Origin: Tetracentron sinense
Taxonomy: Eukaryota; Streptophyta; Magnoliopsida; Trochodendrales; Trochodendraceae
Reading direction: 5' to 3'
Length of the DNA: 64,000 nucleotides
Assembly (NCBI GenBank): GCA_015143295.1
Contig: CM026570.1
Location: forward strand, 8,022,047-8,086,046
The notes below the pieces were generated by a model. It saw only the letters and a list, made by a program, of their open reading frames with translations, was not told the DNA's origin and did not search any database. The position numbers were made by a program, and so were the translations under genes. Each line of letters opens with the position of its first letter. Position 1 is the stretch's first letter. Positions 6,547 to 54,923 of the stretch are shown one piece after another.

Positions 6547-7419
6547 TTAGCGGGTGGCACGTGAAATGCATGTGAGAGCAAGGGGAAGGAGTTAACCACA
6601 GTTAATAAGAGTTAAAAGGGACACGTATTAACCCATAGGTGTGATTGAACTGGCTAGTGGCACGTGAGAGCAAGGGGAAGGAGTTAACCACGTTTAATAG
6701 GAGTTAAAAGGGACACGTGTTAACGCGCGGGTGTAATTGAACTCTCCCCAAGTTCAATCACGATTGGCTGTGATTCTAAATAGATAGATGAGCAAGGAGT
6801 AGTTTGGGAATTAAAGTAAAACATTAAATCAGGGCAAGGGGTGGTTTGGGAATTAAAGTAAAACATTAAATCAAGGCAAGGGGTAGTTTGGGAATATCGG
6901 AAAAATCATCTACGCATGCCTCTCGCATTATAATAGTAAATTAAAGTAAAACATTAAATCAAGGCAACGGGTAGTTTGGGAATATCGGCAAAATCATCTA
7001 CGCATGTCTCTCATATTATAATAGTAAAGAAAAGATAAATTAAATTAAAACATTAAATCAAGGCAAGGGATAGTTTGGGAATATTGGAAAAGTCATCTAT
7101 GCATGTCTCTCGCATTATAATAGTAAATTAAAGTAAAACATTAAATCAAGGCAAGGGGTAGTTTTGGAATATCAAAAAATTATCTACGCATGTCTCTGAC
7201 ATTATAATAGTAAAGAAAAGATAAATTAAAGTAAAGTAAAACATTAAATCAAGGTAAGGGGTAGTTTGGGAATATCGGAAAAATCATCTACGCATGCCTC
7301 TCACATTATAATAGTAAAAAAAAGATAAATTAAAGTAAAACATTAAATCAAGGCAAGGGGTAGTTTGGGAATATGAGAAAAATCATCTACGCATGCCTCT
7401 CGCATTATAATAGTAAAGA
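6547..7419 (-). mobile_element. Non-autonomous Helitron with multiplied termini
   Basis: Read on the minus strand it begins TCTTTACTATTATAATGCG (ending at plus 7419), preceded by A. It ends with a short hairpin region followed by CCACCCGCTAA at 6547, followed by T. A 5' TC, a 3' hairpin plus CTRR, and insertion between A and T are the diagnostic Helitron features. Two things are odd. The 3' terminal domain is present twice, the inner end reading CACTAG near 6642-6647. The 5' terminal ATTATAATAGTAAA motif occurs six times at intervals of about 85-105 bp. No Rep/helicase gene is present. Confidence 0.8.
6785..7419. repeat. Tandem repeats inside the Helitron
   Basis: A nested array. First come three short units of about 43 bp built on GTAGTTTGGGAATTAAAGTA and ACATTAAATCAAGGCAAGG. 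They are followed by longer units that add TCATCTACGCATG and CATTATAATAGTAAA. The latter motif is at about 6927, 7011, 7108, 7197, 7302 and 7402, each occurrence being a copy of the element's own 5' terminus. Confidence 0.85.
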
Positions 7420-7458
7420 TAAAATTAATTATATTTTTAATTTCTTATATTATACATA

Positions 7459-22556: not shown

Positions 22557-22949
22557 ACAAATAAATATTGCCCTCTAAAAATACCAAAAAATGTGTCAAG
22601 TACAAGCTTTTTATAAGTGCAATATACTGTAAATCTGACACATTTTTTAATGTATTCATTGGTTGTATGTATCCCTGGGCTAAGTTTCACTCTATTAAGA
22701 AGGTGATGACATCAATCAAATTGTGTGCTATCAATTCAAAACAAAAAAAAAAAGGGAATATGGCTACAAATAAGATCCAATTAGAGTGCCCCTCTCCGTA
22801 GGAAATGAAACCAAGATCTCCTCCAACTGGTTATCCATTACTCTCTCTCTCACACATCTTTATTACAGGTTTAAATGTGTGTTTGTTAGTACGTTAAAAA
22901 ATCCTTATTATTATTATTATTCAATTGTTTTTGTAGTAAAAGTGGCCAT

Positions 22950-23090
22950 TGCCTTTTTTTTTTTTTTTTTAAAGATAAATGTGGATATCCTGAGTCTTAA
23001 AAACTACTAGTCTCAGCTGCATAGGGAATACCCCCACCCCATACAATTGATATTGAGGGGAGCCCAATAATCGACCTGGAGACCTCCGGG
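22950..23090 (-). mobile_element. Short retroelement insertion with TSD
   Basis: A 141 bp insert is flanked by exact GTGGCCAT repeats at 22942-22949 and 23091-23098. Its T-run at 22953-22970 is a poly-A tail read on the minus strand. The paralogous copy near 23990 reads GAAGTGCCATAGC without the insert, confirming the boundaries. No polymerase III boxes were recognised, so it may be a truncated LINE or SINE. Confidence 0.82.
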
Positions 23091-23225
23091 GTGGCCATAG
23101 CTTAATAATTATTTTTTTTGTAAGTATAACTTAATCAATTTTGTTTCGCATTTCTCATTATCCTATAAGTTTGATTATATTTATAAAACCTAGTCTCATT
23201 CACATGCATTAACTTCTTCTTCAAG

Positions 23226-23389
23226 CACACGCTTGGGTTTGTCACAGTGGTAGAGTATCTCCCTTTGGGGAGGAGTGACTCGTGTTCGAGTCCTGGTGTG
23301 ACCGTTGAGCACCCACCTTTGAGCTCTAACCCACTAACCCTGACATAGATAGATAAATGATCTAGCTGACTACCGAACAAAAAAAAAAA
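23226..23389 (+). mobile_element. tRNA-derived SINE with TSD
   Basis: The head contains an A-box-like CAGTGGTAGAGTATCTCCC and a B box GTGTTCGAGTCCTGG at tRNA-like spacing, and the tail is poly-A (23379-23389). The flanks CTTCTTCTTCAAG and ACATCTTCTTAATAAG are variants of the single ACATCTTCTTCAAG present at the empty site (about 25107) in the paralogous block. This direct empty-site comparison makes the call strong. Confidence 0.88.
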
Positions 23390-23500
23390 CATCTTCTTAA
23401 TAAGAAAGTACATTTCGTCCATTTCATACACACAAGATTCTCATAACCATTATAGTTTGAGTGCACTCATAAAATCTATATGATTGACATATACAATATC

Positions 23501-23566
23501 TTAGGAGGAGCTTTGTTGAACTTCGAGAACTAGCTCCTCCACGCAGAGCTGACATTCCAGCCCAAT
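23501..23566 (-). pseudogene. Extra copy of MUTE terminal exon (open frame)
   Basis: A second copy of the last MUTE exon lies downstream of the gene's canonical last exon. It keeps the acceptor (TTGTTACAG before 23566), phase 0, the same 21-codon length and a TAA at 23501-23503. It would encode IGLECQLCVEELVLEV plus QQSSS, against [16 protein letters not shown] plus QQSFY in the proximal copy. No stop or frameshift has arisen. It may be a non-functional relic or an alternative last exon reached by skipping 25247-25312. Nothing in the sequence shows which. The proximal copy has residues that look more conventional for the family (Ser in place of Cys, final Phe-Tyr). Confidence 0.8.
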
Positions 23567-23934
23567 CTGTAACAAGAATAAAAGGAACCAATTTATTATT
23601 AAATTCACATACTCATAATGAAGGAAGATTACAATATTTGTTTTCAATAGTTTTCTAAATGCCAAAAAGAATTTGTTGGATAATAAACACTAGTTCTTAG
23701 ATTATAACCCACATCTGTCTATGAATTTTCAATGTACATTGAACACGTTAATTCCTCTCAATTAAACGAGCCAAATCAGGTTCTAAGACTACTGAAACGA
23801 GCCACAGGCTTTGGACTCTAAACCCAAGCCCATCTCAATTAATAATCGGGCGGGCCCATCGTTGTGTTTATAATTACTAAACTACCACTTCCCAAGGCCA
23901 TTTTTGGGTTGCTCCGGTTGACTTTTCAACCGAA

Positions 23935-25507
23935 GCTCCTTTTCTTAATTAATCTTCTTCTTCTTCTTCAATTGCTTCTCTAGTAGAAGTGCCATAGCAA
24001 TTGTTTTTGTAAGTATAACTAATTGAATTGCCTTCCAAAACAAAATTATTTTCTCTAATATTTCTTAAAAGGAATGAAAAACATGTTGGAGATATTTCGT
24101 AAAATATCTGTATGTTATATTTAAGACATGCAAATTACAAAACAAGCAAATTAAAATAACAAAACAGAAGATGTGGTGCACTTTACTGATTGAGGCTTGA
24201 ATTAGATTCAATGTCCTTAAGATAAATATTGCTCCACTATGGTGCTGTAGCAACTTGTCTCCAAAGATACAACAATCACGCTTCTGGTAACTACCACTAG
24301 AAACCTAGAAGCATAGCGAACCCAAGGTGTGAAAAACTCTCTCTTGAATGCAGATTCACTGTATGTAGAAGGATGACAGGAACTAGGAAGCAGAAGAATA
24401 ATTTCGTACTCCAAAAATGCAACTGAGAAGCCTTTAAATATAGGCTGAGGAGACTATTCAGAAAAGTTATGTCTTTTGGGTTTGAATTTCAATCCGAACA
24501 AACATGACTGTTGGATAAAAAACCTATTGGGTTTATAGTTGAACTTGAATGGGCTTTAGCCCAAACAAAAAATAAAATATAGGGGCCTGGGCTTAAGGCC
24601 CACAACCTAACCAACCGGACCGGACTCGAACACGGCTCGGGTGGCGGCGGCACACATGTGTGGTTGCATGGTTCCACCCTTAGATAGGTGCTCACCCGTT
24701 TGCAAAATTTGGGTGCCACAAGGGCTCATCCTTTACTCCAAGGCAATGGTATATAAACCAACTTTGGTTTCAATAATTTTTCGATGTAGGATTATTATTC
24801 TATACTATTCTTCAACTAATAACGCATGTTCAAGTGACCAACTTTAAAGTCAATTTCTCATTCACCACTTAACTGTTTTGGACAAATAAATATACCACAT
24901 TAATCTCCTCGTGGAGGAGAACACGGATCCAATTGGACCCGCCTCAAAACCCATGTGGGTCCCACATTTATTTTGAATCAAAGTTTTCAAAAAACCAGAT
25001 TTTTCCAAAACTTCCCAACAAAAACAATCTCAAGAAAAGTAAACTAATTCCTTCATCGTTTAAGTTTGATTACATTTATAAAACCTAGCCTCATTCACAT
25101 GCATTAACATCTTCTTCAAGATAGAAAATGGATTTCTTCCATTTCACACACACAAGATTATCATAACCATTATAGTTTGATTGCACTCATAAACTCTATA
25201 TGATTGACATACACAACATCTTAGTTGAAGCTTTGTTCACAACATCTTAGTAGAAGCTTTGTTGAACTTCGAGAGCTAGCTCATCCACGCTGAGCTGACA
25301 TTCGAGCCCAATCTGTAACAAGAATAAAAGGAACCAATTTATCATTAAATTCACACACTCATAACTTAAGTAAAAGAAGATTACAATATTATTTTTTACT
25401 AATTTTCTAAATGCCAAAAAAAAACTGTTGGATAATAAACACTAGGTCTTAGATGATAACCCACATTTGTCTATGAATTTTCAAGGTACATTGAAAACGT
25501 TAATATT
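23935..25507. repeat. Duplicated MUTE 3' block, proximal copy
   Basis: Partner of 22897-23765, interrupted only by the solo LTR at 24084-25020. It holds the canonical third exon of MUTE. Next to the stop codon there is an additional 26 bp tandem repeat (ACAACATCTTAG...GCTTTGTT at 25214-25239 and 25240-25265) not present in the distal copy. Confidence 0.85.
24084..25020 (-). mobile_element. Solo LTR, probably copia-type
   Basis: On the minus strand it begins TGTTGGGAAGTTTTGG (25020) and ends ATATCTCCAACA (24084), giving TG...CA termini with a short terminal inverted repeat TGTTGG/CCAACA. Direct repeats AAAACA flank it at 24078-24083 and 25021-25026. A TATA-like CCTATATTTAAAGG lies mid-element on the same strand at about 24440. 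No internal region or second LTR is present, so it is a solo LTR left by recombination. It lies in the 3' flank of MUTE on the gene's own strand, between the two copies of the last exon. Confidence 0.82.
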
Positions 25508-26778
25508 TCAATTGAAAATTGATAGTTGATAATCTCTAACTTTCAAATCTTTTGGGAAATGTACATAAATATTTATAAACGTGGTTCCAACACAAGATAG
25601 TTTATATAATTGCACCACTAGTTACTGTAGTTCTATATTATTTGTGGTGATAATGAAAAATCACTAGTACTTAAGTTAGATTCTGCGAGAAAAATCAACT
25701 AGTCATGGATTGTTTCCCTTGAATCCAATCCAATCATCCACGAAATGGGAGAAAAATGTTACTACTAGTTTAAGAAATGATCGTTCTATCTTTCACTTGC
25801 CCTTAGATGATCATTCTTTATTCTGAGTCACCTAAGGATTTTGTTTGCGCAATTGGGCTGGTCCCCAGGCTTAGAGAAGCCTAGAGAGATATAGCACCCC
25901 GAGGAGAAGTAAAATAGGTGTCAAACAGACTCCGACAGCGCCATTTACCACTCAATCAGTACATAGAAAGTTAATCACTTATATATCCTAAAGAATAAGA
26001 GAGGGGGGAGGGAAAGAGTTCCGCGTCGATTACTAAAAATTAGTTTGTAACAATCTGTATGTATAGGTATAGTTTTCTCAATAATAAAACTTTTTATGTT
26101 AGTGTCTTTGAATTCTATAATTAAATTGAATTGCGCCTTTTATGGCAATAAGCTCTAATTATCAACCAGTCCTAAACCATTAAGAAAATCCAAAGATGCA
26201 TGGATGCCCCTTTAAGTGCAATGATACCTTTACATGCACTTAAAGTACTATTCTTGGAGGTGTAACAATTTATTTTTCAGATATGGAGTAGGACAAGTAC
26301 TAATTAACTTAACAGTAAGGAAATTTGGAATAGTTTGTATTCATACCTTAACAACAAAGGAGTATAAGACAGTGTCCTCCATGCTACTGATGTTGAGATG
26401 AATGATCTCAAATGAAAGTTTCTCCAAGACACTGATTATTTTCACAATTTGACCCGGAATACGCCTTGAAATTGTTCGTAAAATGACATTTGATCCAGAT
26501 ATTTTGGCCTCAACGTCTGCGACGGAAGAGTTGCAGCATGCACAGAACTCTTTAACATTTTCAAATCCCAAAGGGCTATCAGGTGGAGGAGTTGGCTGCA
26601 ATGGTCTTGGGCTAGGACTAGGACTAGGACTAGGGCTTAAACTCTTCCTTTGTTTCTTGGATTCCAGTGATTGTAAAACTTGGTGCAACTCCTTGATGAA
26701 TTCTATTACACCCCCTATAATTGATGCTTGATCTCCCTAATACACAATGAAATTGTTAAAATGGTATCGTGTGTCTCT

Positions 26779-26809
<31 letters not shown>

Positions 26810-26906
26810 CCCTTTTTACATAGAAACATGGGGTCAAGGAGCGTAAAACCTTGAGATGGTCGTTCATTTGCCTTCTCCTGTTTCTCTCCACAGCTATATG
26901 GGACAT
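25247..26906 (-). CDS. MUTE: MUTE-like stomatal bHLH transcription factor
   Basis: Three exons on the minus strand: 26906-26811, 26736-26347 and 25312-25247, all joined in phase 0 (donors AGG/GTAAAT and AAG/GTATGA; acceptors TTAG/GGAG and ACAG/ATTG). Together they give 183 aa. The protein begins [20 protein letters not shown], with the basic region at residues 3-14 and helix-loop-helix to about 55. A Ser-Pro repeat tract follows (about 66-76), then a C-terminal ACT-like regulatory domain from VEAKISGSN at about 107 to the end. The short N-terminus and the C-terminal text are those of MUTE rather than SPEECHLESS or FAMA. MUTE acts in the nucleus with ICE1/SCREAM-type bHLH partners to end meristemoid divisions and specify guard mother cells. 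Intron 1 is only 74 nt and half of it is a CT repeat. The last exon is duplicated downstream. Confidence 0.95.
26779..26805. repeat. (AG)n microsatellite in MUTE intron 1
   Basis: About 13 AG units (CT on the coding strand) begin 5 nt inside the intron, directly after the donor GTAAAT, and fill more than a third of this 74 nt intron. Confidence 0.9.
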
Positions 26907-43009: not shown

Positions 43010-45232
43010 TTATCCCATGCGTAGCCTTTTAGCACGTGCAATCTCCTCATGCTTTTGTGCTTGCAACGAATTGGAGAATCCTGGAGGAGGAAAGCTAATT
43101 GTTGTAATGCTAGAAGGTGGGGACCGCGGAGCATCAATCTCATCAGCATAAAGTACGCCATATTCTCTCTCTTCAATGGCTTCCATGTCATTCTCTAAAT
43201 TGTCATCATTAACAAAACTATCCCAGTTCTTATAGGTTCCCTCATAATCCTCCCTGTATCGCGTCAGTAATCGATGGTTATAATGGACATATAGTAAAGT
43301 ATCTGCACGATCAGCGTTCATCTTGTTCCTCTTAACACTATGGATATACCCATAAGTACTCAATGCTCTCTCCACACATGAGGTGCTAACGCATTGGGAC
43401 AACACTTTAACTGCCAAACTGTAAAGCTCTGGAGCAGTTACACCATATAAATCCCACCATGATATTGCAGGCATTGTCTCTCTATCCTTGATTGCTTGAG
43501 GACGAGTAAAAACACCTCTGTTACTGACAAAGTCACTAAGTTGTTGCCGGACTAAAGACGCTTCCCTTGGATCCCTAACTAGTTGATCCACTACATCCAA
43601 ATAAATCTTGTGAACATTAGGATCTGCATGAGGCTTCTTCCTTTTCTCTCCCCCCGGAGCCACACTCATCAACCAAGACTCTGAATAATAATAAGGAGTA
43701 AGCACATATGCAAGAGTATACAAAGGAAAATCCATCTTCTCCCATCGCCCCATAACAATATTTTGAACGGCTTGATACATCTCAACATTATCCAACAATG
43801 CCACTTTTATGCATCCCAACATGTCCTCCATCCTCCCATAAACTTCCCCAATTACAGCTCTATCTAAGTCACAAAAGCGAATCATCCCCCAAATTGGCTT
43901 TGTGAATGCCAATATAATCTTTAAATTCTTCCAAAAGTCGTCATCCAATATGGTTTTTCTTACCTCTTCATGCTCCATATTTAAACCTCCTCTCTTGAGT
44001 TCTTCCCATTCCTCGCTCAAAACCATGCTCACTAAATCATTCTTCACCCGAGCAATACGGTCTAATACAACAAAATGATGTCCAAATCTTGCCTTTTTAA
44101 CTTGTATAACATTCAATGCTGAAAATGTTCGAAATATACAGAGAGCCGAACTATGATTTTTAATGTATTTCATGATGCCCTTTGCCCTCCTATAACAATC
44201 ACCAACAAAAGATAAACATGGATGCATTGAGTTTATAATATCTCTTATCAAGAGGCTCAAAGTATGAGCCATGCAACCAGACCAAAAGATATGAGGGTGT
44301 CTCTTTTGAATGATGATCCCTGCAGTCTTACATGCGGTTGCACTATCAGTTACAACTTGCACGACATTACATGCACCAACAGTTTCAATAGCTTTGAGCA
44401 AAAAATCTGCTATATATTCGCCTGATTTTTCATCTCCAAGGCAATCAATGCCACGAATAAACATCGTCCTACCTCCTGACACTGCCATTACATTAACTAA
44501 TAGTTTATTCTTGAGGTTTGTCCAACCATATGAGACAATTGAAACCCCATACGTTGGCCATTGTTGCTTCAAAGAAATTAATGCCTGATCAACTTTAGTT
44601 CTTTCTTGATCAAGAAGCGTAGTCTTTATCTTCTCTACACATGGTGGCTCATACCCCTTAGGTGCTTCATTAATTGCCTTCACCATATCAGACCAAAGAG
44701 GGGACTTTGCTACATTAAGAGGTATCCCATTCCCATAGAAAAATCTTGCAATTACCCCATCCACATCATCTCTATGAGATATTCTAAGCATATCAGGGAT
44801 GCTCTTCTGTCTTTTTGCTATCTTCATACTCCTGTTCGTCTTGCATATTGGTGAAACAACTGAAATGCTCGGAACTAGCTTTTTGCGTGAACAACCTCCG
44901 AAAATTCTCTTAGCTTCGTCTTCTTTGTTTTTCATTTTCTCCCTCTCTTCTTCATGTACCTTAGAACATAATGCCACTCCTTGCGATTTCTGTCCAGGTA
45001 ACAATCCGATCAAGTGAGCTCTAATACGAGAATATGTCCCTGTATAAGGTTCGGACCTGCACCCAAAATTACAAATCCACTTGCAAGCATTCCCCTCCTT
45101 TCTATGTTCAAAAAATGTTACATATCTTTTGAGAGGGGTAGGTGTTAGCTCCCCAGGCTCATCCTTAATGTCTCCAACCTCAAAAAATGGATTCTCTGCT
45201 GATACTGAATTTGCTCCCTCGTGTTCATCCAT
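43010..45232 (-). CDS. hAT-superfamily transposase-like protein with BED finger
   Basis: A single open frame of 740 aa (ATG at 45232, TAA ending at 43010). Domains: a BED-type zinc finger at about 36-90 (Cys50, CNFGC, RIRAHL), basic nuclear-import stretches near 116 and 137-142, a DUF659/transposase core at about 155-340, and the hAT C-terminal dimerisation region at about 590-660. Of the three catalytic acids expected in hAT enzymes, the first is missing (SYGWTNLKN, Tyr235, where relatives have SDGWT). The second (VVTDSATA, Asp296) and third (CVERALST, Glu621) remain. hAT transposases cut DNA by hairpin formation; DNA-binding relatives have been domesticated in plants. The frame is intact although the neighbouring elements are ruined. 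It could be a recently silent transposon or a domesticated gene. Confidence 0.88.
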
Positions 45233-46510
45233 TTTGATCCTTGAAAATCCTTGAAAAAAAAATTAGCATTAATAATCACACAAAGTATGTTTTTGAGAAA
45301 AATGATGGTTTACACCTACAATCACAAGTTTATTTAACTAAATAGTGCAAATGCAACGAAAATGACATCTCTGTAACAAGTAAATCATAATAGAAGCAAG
45401 AAAACATATAGTATAAGTTCAGATGCACAGTAATCACCATATTTCAAGATTACATGGTATATTTTGCCATCATAATTAAGAACTACGTATCCAAACAGAC
45501 CCACCAAGGGTTAGTGCAGTTGGCTAGCATCCCGGGTTTGCTCCATGTGCTCGTGTGTTCAACTCCCACTCCTCAACTTACCCTGGTATCCGTAGGGAAA
45601 ATTCCGATTGGATCGGTGCGGATACCTGAAGGGACTATTCCTTGGATCGAAGGCTTTGGGACACCCTCCGTTACCAAAAAAAAAAAAAGTAGGCAGACAA
45701 TTTTGCTTATAAACCTCCAAAATTTTTATGTTAGGATATTACAACATTTTCACTGGGGGTAGGTAGGAGGTGCTTTCTTTCTCTTTGTTTTCTGTGAGTT
45801 CATTTACCCGTGAACTCCCTTTTTATTTAATTTCCACTAAATAGTACATGGACTTATTACCCATTAAAAAAAAATTATTACACCCTTCTATATCAAAGAG
45901 GCAATTGTAAATGACTGTGTCATGAATCCATGATAGAAGAACAATCAAAACAAACAAGCTAAACGAAAACCCTAACAATTTCTACTAAGACCCAAAACAG
46001 GATTAGAAAAACATGAGCTATGCACTATTCTCACTGAACCTTAACATATCTTTCTTTTTTAATTATCAATTACTCAACCACAAATAGCCCATTGAATGCA
46101 CTGCTGTACTACAATTTATACTGATTTTTGAAAAAAAATGGGATCTTTAATCCTTCTGATCTCATCCAATATCTTCCCTAACAATTATGTTTCTGCCATT
46201 GCAGCACACTATGAAATGTTTTGCAGTCAATTCATCATTTTATAATTGGAAAATAAAAATGAAGAAGAAAAATGATTTAACTTCAAACAGAACAAAATCC
46301 AATAAATGGCAAGAACAGAGCAGAACCTGATAAGGAATTTAAGTTGACTCAAATCTATATAAAGTAATTATAGAGATATTATGTTTACCTGAAACAGAGT
46401 ATTCAAATGCTTTGAAATTGAGATTGGAGAACTTGATGAGGAATTTCTTCTTGCTTGAAAGTTGAAACTCTTCTTCCACTTCACCCTTCTTCCTAGGTTT
46501 TCAGTTTTCC
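45233..46510 (-). promoter_or_regulatory. Probable 5'UTR exon and intron of the hAT gene
   Basis: On the minus strand a consensus donor TTTCAG/GTAAAC at 46389/46388 is followed about 1.1 kb later by a T-tract and TTTCAAG at 45250, or a second AG at 45240, just before the ATG. This suggests a non-coding first exon of about 46500-46389 and an intron 46388-45250. The first exon start was not located and splicing is inferred. Confidence 0.5.
45501..45688 (+). mobile_element. tRNA-derived SINE inside the hAT gene intron
   Basis: An A-box-like TTAGTGCAGTTGGCTAGCAT is followed by a B box GTGTTCAACTCCC at tRNA spacing, a unique body with GGATCGGTGCGGATACC and a 13 nt poly-A tail. It is in reverse orientation to the host gene. 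The TSD is not clear. Confidence 0.75.
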
Positions 46511-53170: not shown

Positions 53171-53570
53171 AAGAGTATATCATGTTGGCATTGTTCATTT
53201 GCGAGGGGATTCCAAGCATATGAAGGGACTTAGTCCTTCCTTGTTAGGGTTGGACGTTTGTACACCTTATGTTACAACAACAAAAAAAAAATTTGTTTGT
53301 TCGTAAGAGTTCATGTTAAGCGAGTGTGTCTCTCTCTAACATAGCCAAGTGCTCTCTCTTACCAACTGCCTTTGTTCTTTTAGGATGATCATCCCCATCG
53401 TTACTTGCTAAAATGAGCTTAAGTCCACACAACACCATCTCACTACAACGTCACTCTCAACCCATGCGGAAGAAAACGACCAAGCCAATATTAAAGACAA
53501 ATGATCTAAACATGTCGCTACTGCTTGCGCTAGCCGCGTACCCCCCACTAGCACCAAAACTCCACCACCC

Positions 53571-53578
53571 TATAAAAT
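53571..53578 (+). promoter_or_regulatory. TATA box of the basic-7S-globulin-like gene
   Basis: TATAAAAT lies 80 nt upstream of the ATG at 53658. It predicts a start site near 53600-53610 and supports the 53658 start codon over the upstream in-frame ATG at 53586. Confidence 0.7.
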
Positions 53579-53657
53579 ACGCACCGTGCTCAGTATCATC
53601 CACCAGTCACTACTACTACTACTACACTATCTTCTCCTCACAACCCGTCTTCCTTCA

Positions 53658-54923
53658 ATGGCTTCTTTTCTTAGTTTTCTTCTGTTATTTTCTCTCCTTC
53701 TCATCTCTCTCTCTCATGCCCAAAGACACTTGAAGCCGAACACACTCGTCTTGCCCGTCAGTAAAGATGGGGCGACACATCTCTATGTGACTACCATCCA
53801 CAAGAGAACTCCCCTCTTGCCTGTACCATTTGTTCTAGACCTCAATGGCCTGTTCTTATGGGTAAATTGCGAGCATCAGTACTTGTCATCGACCTACCGC
53901 GCTCCCCGTTGCCACTCAGCGCAATGCTCAATTGCCAATACTCACCGGTGCCGCACATGTCCTTCTCCGGCTAGGCCCGGGTGCCATAACAATACATGTA
54001 GCCTAGTACCTGTGAACCCTGTTACTAATAAGAGTGGGAATGGGGAGCTTGCACAAGATGTCCTCTCAATACAATTAACAGACGGGTCGAACTCCGGTCC
54101 CATGGTTACTGTCCCTGGCTTCCTCTTTGCTTGTGCACCAGCCTTCTTATTGCAAGGACCACTTCCAATTGGTGTTCAAGGAATAGCAGGACTAGGAAGG
54201 ACTCAAATTGCATTACCTACTCAACTTGCCTCCCACTTCGGGTTTCGACCAAAGTTCGCCTTATGTCTTACTTCCTCGGCCAGCAATGGTGTCATTTTCT
54301 TCGGCGATGGGCCTTATATGATGCTTCCGGGTATCGATATTTCACAGGCAATTGGCCATACCCCACTGGTCATAAGTCCTCAAGGAGAGTACTATATAGG
54401 AGTGAGATCCATAAGAATCAATAACAAGCTTGTTCCACTCAATACATCCTTGTTGTCCAAGAACATATATGGTTTCAGTGGAACCATGATCAGCACTGTT
54501 GTTCCTTATACCATTCTTGAAACCTCCATTTACAAGGCTGTTACACAATTCTTCGCTAATGAGCTCTATTGGGTCCATAGAGTGGCACCTGTGGCACCTT
54601 TTGGTGTATGCTTTAACTCGACTAATATCACAAGTACAAGAGTTGGGCCTGGTGTTCCGAACATCGATCTTGTGTTGCAGAATGAAAATGTGGTTTGGAG
54701 GATCTTTGGAGTGAATTCCATGGTTCGGACCGGGCAGGATGTGTTGTGTTTGGGGTTCGTGGATGGAGGGCCGCACCCTATGGCTTCGATCGTTATAGGG
54801 GGACACCAACTGGAGGATAATCTTCTACAGTTTGATCTGAGTAGGTCATCGTTGGGGTTCAGTTCATCACTCTTGTTCAGGCGAACTAGTTGTGCCAACT
54901 TCAACTTTACATCCAATTCCTAG
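53658..54923 (+). CDS. Basic 7S globulin / xylanase-inhibitor-like protein
   Basis: An intronless 421 aa secreted protein with an aspartic-protease fold. The start at 53658 begins MASFLSFLLLFSLLLISLSH, a clear signal peptide with likely cleavage after Ala21; an in-frame ATG at 53586 is upstream and lies near the predicted transcription start. The N-terminal lobe has FVLDLNGLFLWVNC (residues 58-71) where proteases have DTG; Asp61 remains. The second active site reads GFSGTMISTV (272-281), with Ser replacing the catalytic Asp. Twelve cysteines, VQGIAGLGRTQIALPTQL (173-190) and IVIGGHQLEDNLLQFDL (378-394) fit the family of soybean basic 7S globulin, carrot EDGP and cereal TAXI inhibitors. Members lack protease activity, bind microbial glycosyl hydrolases and are extracellular. 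The exact target is unknown. Confidence 0.93.
   Translation: MASFLSFLLLFSLLLISLSHAQRHLKPNTLVLPVSKDGATHLYVTTIHKRTPLLPVPFVLDLNGLFLWVNCEHQYLSSTYRAPRCHSAQCSIANTHRCRTCPSPARPGCHNNTCSLVPVNPVTNKSGNGELAQDVLSIQLTDGSNSGPMVTVPGFLFACAPAFLLQGPLPIGVQGIAGLGRTQIALPTQLASHFGFRPKFALCLTSSASNGVIFFGDGPYMMLPGIDISQAIGHTPLVISPQGEYYIGVRSIRINNKLVPLNTSLLSKNIYGFSGTMISTVVPYTILETSIYKAVTQFFANELYWVHRVAPVAPFGVCFNSTNITSTRVGPGVPNIDLVLQNENVVWRIFGVNSMVRTGQDVLCLGFVDGGPHPMASIVIGGHQLEDNLLQFDLSRSSLGFSSSLLFRRTSCANFNFTSNS

Follow-up and report, generated by a model that had tools for sequence, protein, structure and literature searches.

A MUTE-like gene of Tetracentron sinense is followed by a second copy of its terminal coding exon, the product of an ordinary tandem exon duplication. 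The structure of the two copies, their divergence and the polarity of their differences make it very probable that the distal exon is an unselected relic of that duplication, which drifts without coding selection and, we infer, goes unused. We propose that, after the whole-genome duplications of the lineage, one chromosome underwent a tandem duplication in which approximately 0.55–0.63 kb (later inserts excluded) of one MUTE gene was copied, from the end of intron 2 through the terminal exon into the 3' flank. According to this model, the proximal exon would still terminate MUTE, and the distal copy, positioned beyond the normal end of the gene and cut off from it by a solo LTR and other repeats, would since have drifted free of coding selection. 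The distal exon would remain unused because transcripts normally end, and the nearer, locally identical acceptor is picked, before the distal exon; its short length and youth would account for the open frame and acceptor that it retains. A duplicate exon that is neutral, short, and young is expected to be still open and spliceable, and openness alone does not amount to function. The locus thus provides a roughly dated case that is polarized by homeologue outgroups inside one genome. Titles and beginnings of abstracts of the papers listed for MUTE isoforms, the MUTE ACT-like domain, tandem terminal exons, and stomata or MUTE in Trochodendrales contained no earlier report of this duplication.

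The MUTE gene and its homeologues

The window, the whole stretch of 64,000 nucleotides that was analyzed, corresponds to C20:8022047-8086046 of a 1.16-Gb assembly. Its minus strand harbors a three-exon MUTE-like gene that encodes a product of 183 residues. The exons, in coordinates of the window, are as follows.

26811..26906, minus strand: MUTE exon 1, 96 nt; basic region and start of the HLH; donor AGG/GTAAAT; Pfam HLH
26347..26736, minus strand: MUTE exon 2, 390 nt; remaining HLH and most of the ACT-like domain; donor AAG/GTATGA
25247..25312, minus strand: proximal terminal exon 3, 21 codons, phase 0, TAA stop, acceptor TTGTTACAG

In a Pfam profile search, the product matched HLH (PF00010) with E = 5.4e-11, over the cut-off of that profile, and the plant bHLH ACT-like domain (PF22754) with E = 1.4e-5 at 25.6 bits, slightly below the cut-off of 27.6. 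This combination of domains, the end of the second being encoded by exon 3, bears out the assignment of the gene as MUTE-like and resembles MUTE itself, which regulates stomatal development and belongs to bHLH group Ia. We use the name MUTE, as opposed to SPCH or FAMA, as a provisional label for the gene. Three coding exons, the last of which specifies the C-terminal ACT-like segment, are also shared with MUTE, and the homeologue on C14 has this structure as well. A search of PDB sequences with MUTE returned 17 matches at E <= 1, none of which was recognized as an ACT-like domain; the best corresponded to bHLH parts (MYC2, E = 3.7e-5). A side feature of exon 2 is a CCTAGT-type hexamer repeat at 26600-26640, which produces an SP-rich run two codons longer than that of C14.

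MUTE had been described in the original prediction as single-copy, which is refuted by two further loci, an intact copy on C14 and a decayed one on C8. When exon 2 of the C20 gene was compared with the genome, C14 was 84% identical and other sequences covering most of the exon reached at most 48%. Shorter, partial matches at 58-66% identity were located on C8 (the broken MUTE), C180, and C22 (30.25 Mb). The C14 and C20 genes differ with Ka of 0.054 and Ks of 0.558 (Ka/Ks 0.097). In the C8 gene, in-frame stops and changes in length have accumulated, and these include the terminal exon. The decayed third homeologue occupies C8:8342500-8349500, where part of exon 1 is found twice.

The T. sinense genome report describes a 1.17-Gb assembly with 24 chromosomes, 65 to 33 Mb long, and places chromosomes 8, 14, 16, and 20 in one collinear group that arose from two whole-genome duplications (PMC7709256); our placement of C8, C14, and C20 in this group assumes that contig numbers follow chromosome numbers. 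A marker of collinearity lies on the plus strand at 53505-54923 of the window, in the form of an open xylanase-inhibitor-like gene (TAXi_N and TAXi_C domains) 27 kb from the C20 MUTE. Its best match outside the window is about 90 kb from the C14 MUTE, and other matches are no farther than approximately 100-150 kb from the C14 MUTE and 50 kb from the C8 MUTE; one further good match on C14 is 7 Mb away. No second copy of the duplicated block was found in 7-kb stretches at the C14 and C8 homeologues. Among the three MUTE loci found, only C20 has its last exon doubled and a 26-bp repeat across the stop codon.

Extent of the duplication and insertion of repeats

The second terminal exon lies downstream of the first in the direction of transcription, at the position originally predicted. 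The two exons share identical TTGTTACAG acceptors, phase 0, a length of 21 codons, and a TAA stop, and the five predicted amino acid differences between them, which include FY (proximal) versus SS (distal) at the C-terminus, were confirmed from both exon sequences. The earlier description of a tandem repeat of the last exon holds as far as the duplication goes; the repeat is not limited to the exon and spans about 25516-23945 and 23766-22894. The elements of this region are listed below.

23501..23566, minus strand: distal terminal exon copy, IGLECQLCVEELVLEVQQSSS followed by a stop; open, with the same acceptor as the proximal exon
23945..25516, minus strand: proximal duplication unit; end of intron 2, exon 3, 3' flank, with the solo LTR inside; ends approximate
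22894..23766, minus strand: distal duplication unit; ends approximate
25212..25263, minus strand: 26-bp tandem repeat (from alignment), two units with one mismatch; spans the stop of the proximal exon
24084..25020, minus strand: solo LTR-like insertion, TGTTGG...CCAACA, 937 bp, with TGTTTT on both sides; high-copy family; inside the proximal copy
23226..23389, plus strand: SINE-like insertion in the distal copy; high-copy; poly-T on the minus strand; ends approximate
22951..23090, minus strand: second SINE-like insertion in the distal copy; A-run and ATGGCCAC flanking repeat; ends approximate
23753..23960, minus strand: spacer between the copies, which overlaps the end of the proximal unit; 23955-23855 matches a high-copy short repeat

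Within the window, BLAST aligned the duplicated block at 83% identity over 399 columns (E = 6.8e-121), together with a 66-bp piece at 92%, a likeness far greater than chance would give. The acceptor by itself carries little meaning because the 9-mer TTGTTACAG occurs 4493 + 4528 times in the genome. The distal copy, C14, and C8 each contain only one unit of the 26-bp repeat. A G/A difference creates an AATAAA at 23592-23597 in the distal copy, approximately 30 bp before the distal exon, probably by chance.

A query with 24091-25019, which falls within the 937-bp element, yielded 953 first-look candidates, 40 of which were scored. Among the 41 matches listed, which include the query's own place, 37 cover >800 of the 929 query bases, and several sit 4-7 kb apart on the same strand, as pairs of LTRs do. 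On account of these many relatives and their spacing, we read the element as a solo LTR; it contains an AATAAA at 24972. Queries with the two SINE-like insertions (23236-23395 and 22955-23095) and with the spacer repeat were likewise high-copy, with 2099, 1732, and 1097 candidates, respectively, and 40 scored in each case. Alignment of the two copies reveals an empty site in the proximal copy at the position of the second SINE-like insertion.

Haplotypes mis-joined during assembly could in principle produce such an arrangement. The two copies differ at approximately 10% of sites, which exceeds the difference expected between haplotypes; moreover, they carry different insertions and reside within one contig of 35.3 Mb. 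We found no point in favor of an artefact and hold this explanation to be highly improbable. Elsewhere in the window, an unbroken frame of 750 residues with DUF659 and hAT dimerization domains (43010-45262, minus strand) resembles a hAT-type transposase gene, and direct repeats at 6851-7435 (87-88% identity; shifts of about 187, 275, and 378 bp) suggest a tandem unit of about 90-95 bp.

Divergence of the two exon copies

The distal exon possesses the in-phase acceptor, open frame, and stop that a functional alternative terminal exon requires, and its substitution level is like that of non-coding flank, as a relic of an exon requires. The copies differ at 6/66 sites in the exon, 17/186 in the aligned end of the intron, and 20/174 in the 3' flank; the exon count is that of the ungapped sequences, and a gapped alignment with a 26-bp gap before the last codons counts 5/61. 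The exon is indistinguishable from the combined flanks (6/66 versus 37/360; Fisher P = 1.0). Five of the six exon differences are nonsynonymous and one is synonymous (Ka 0.111, Ks 0.073), a ratio that differs from that in exons 1 and 2 of the C20 and C14 MUTE genes (20 nonsynonymous, 42 synonymous; Fisher P = 0.022). When the comparison is restricted to exon 3, in which the proximal copy and C14 differ by two nonsynonymous and six synonymous changes, the difference is not significant (P = 0.10). In simulations of six changes (20,000 runs each), five or more were nonsynonymous in 0.3% of runs at an omega of 0.1, 8% at 0.3, and 52% at 1. Thus, neither the ratio of changes, the flank comparison, nor simulation found purifying selection on the coding sequence of the distal exon, at the low power that 21 codons afford. 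No excess of synonymous change separates the copies, and the flanks are equally diverged; of the refuting conditions set with the original prediction, this one goes against use of the exon in an isoform. Each of these tests is weak because the exon is short; taken together, they favor drift. Because the exon has only 21 codons, the distal copy may nonetheless be weakly constrained or have been used recently.

The distal copy had also been described as free of inactivating changes. This is true and carries little weight, because 56% of neutral copies that received six random substitutions retained the AG, frame, and stop (100,000 runs starting from the proximal exon). The openness of the distal exon is therefore unremarkable, and we reject it as a sign of function. 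The sole hint favoring use of the distal exon comes from the acceptor side. The last 30 bp of the intron contain 0/30 differences, compared with 17/156 in the remainder of the aligned intron (Fisher P = 0.079, for a stretch picked out after the fact); these 30 bp and the first eight bases of the exon lie in a 38-bp run that is identical in both copies. The acceptor may be under constraint.

The homeologues allow many of the differences to be polarized. The product of the C14 gene ends in SFS, and both C14 and C8 end in TTC TCC TAA, which indicates that the final S of the distal exon is ancestral and the Y of the proximal exon derived. The distal copy accordingly did not acquire both residues of the SS that contrasts with FY: Y arose in the proximal exon, and the distal exon gained only F>S. 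The clear derived changes of the distal exon are S>C, F>S, and a silent CTC>CTG; C14 and C8 keep the S and F codons at the first two sites. Since the duplication, the proximal exon has acquired a clear S>Y and a likely V>A (polarized by C14 only), and no synonymous change could be assigned to it. The D/E difference has no polarity, with GAT in C14 and GAG in C8. On the intron side, four flank changes were assigned to the proximal copy, six to the distal copy, and seven to neither; the corresponding numbers for the 3' flank are seven, six, and seven. As the proximal exon has itself changed at the amino acid level only, relaxation may extend beyond the distal copy. The last residues of MUTE differ between tomato and Arabidopsis (PMC6828996), and S>Y in the proximal exon need not therefore mean lost function.

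These observations liken the distal copy to decaying gene fragments and exon relics in general, with which it shares partial copying without upstream exons, substitutions at a non-coding level, and insertion of repeats. It differs from them in being still open with an acceptor, as a short young copy should be.

Possible uses of the distal exon and age of the duplication

Exon phases confirm the prediction that exon 2 joined to the distal copy stays in frame, and splicing to the distal exon is possible, if unsupported. Some MUTE transcripts might bypass the proximal exon together with its poly(A) site and join exon 2 to 23566, which we consider unlikely. Frame, phase, and acceptor permit this event, the acceptor stretch is identical, and a precedent exists in the mutually exclusive terminal exons that tandem duplication generated in Drosophila pip (PMC9013439). 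In both cases an exon was copied alongside its acceptor, which yields two potential in-phase ends. In contrast to pip, the distal MUTE copy, characterized here at the level of DNA, diverges like non-coding flank and lies behind repeats beyond the proximal terminal exon. To form such transcripts, the polymerase must cross the 937-bp LTR with its AATAAA and the spliceosome must pass over a nearer acceptor identical in sequence, which would presumably disfavor them. The weak tests for coding constraint also argue against this use.

The derived F>S and S>C changes make the distal form a slightly poorer fit to the ACT-like profile: its match scores 23.4 bits and ends at residue 164, versus 25.6 bits and residue 180 for the proximal form, a small difference. 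The D/E-E of exon 3 presumably corresponds to E162/E163 of Arabidopsis MUTE. Those residues form part of a modelled compound-binding site, and binding of the compound to the ACT-like domain disturbs the pairing of MUTE with SCREAM, according to a study in Arabidopsis (PMC11500415). If the distal exon were used, MUTE would acquire a different C-terminal end to its ACT-like domain, with possible effects on SCREAM pairing; a master regulator would then have gained an alternative C-terminus recently, in the domain tied to that pairing. It is tempting to speculate that, through a lineage-specific second terminal exon, one of two MUTE homeologues produces an isoform whose ACT-like tail is altered (S>C, F>S). 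Nature would then have supplied an experiment on whether partner choice with SCREAM depends on the last segment of MUTE; the chances of such an isoform, judged from the sequence, are slim.

The distal copy might alternatively serve without being translated. Read-through transcripts could splice the proximal 3' UTR to it, or it could supply an alternative 3' end that tunes the level of MUTE mRNA and leaves the protein unchanged. The acceptor identical in both copies and a donor-like GTATGT stretch after the proximal stop are compatible with such a role. A GTATGT hexamer is common by chance and would be expected often on that account, and we regard non-coding use as very improbable.

After Jukes-Cantor correction, divergence of the flanks is 0.097-0.125. 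At 3.25e-9 per site per year, which the genome report gives as a synonymous rate for the order (PMC7709256), the duplication would be approximately 15-19 million years old. It would therefore be younger than the split of Tetracentron and Trochodendron, placed at 44-30 million years (PMC3618518), and is probably restricted to Tetracentron.
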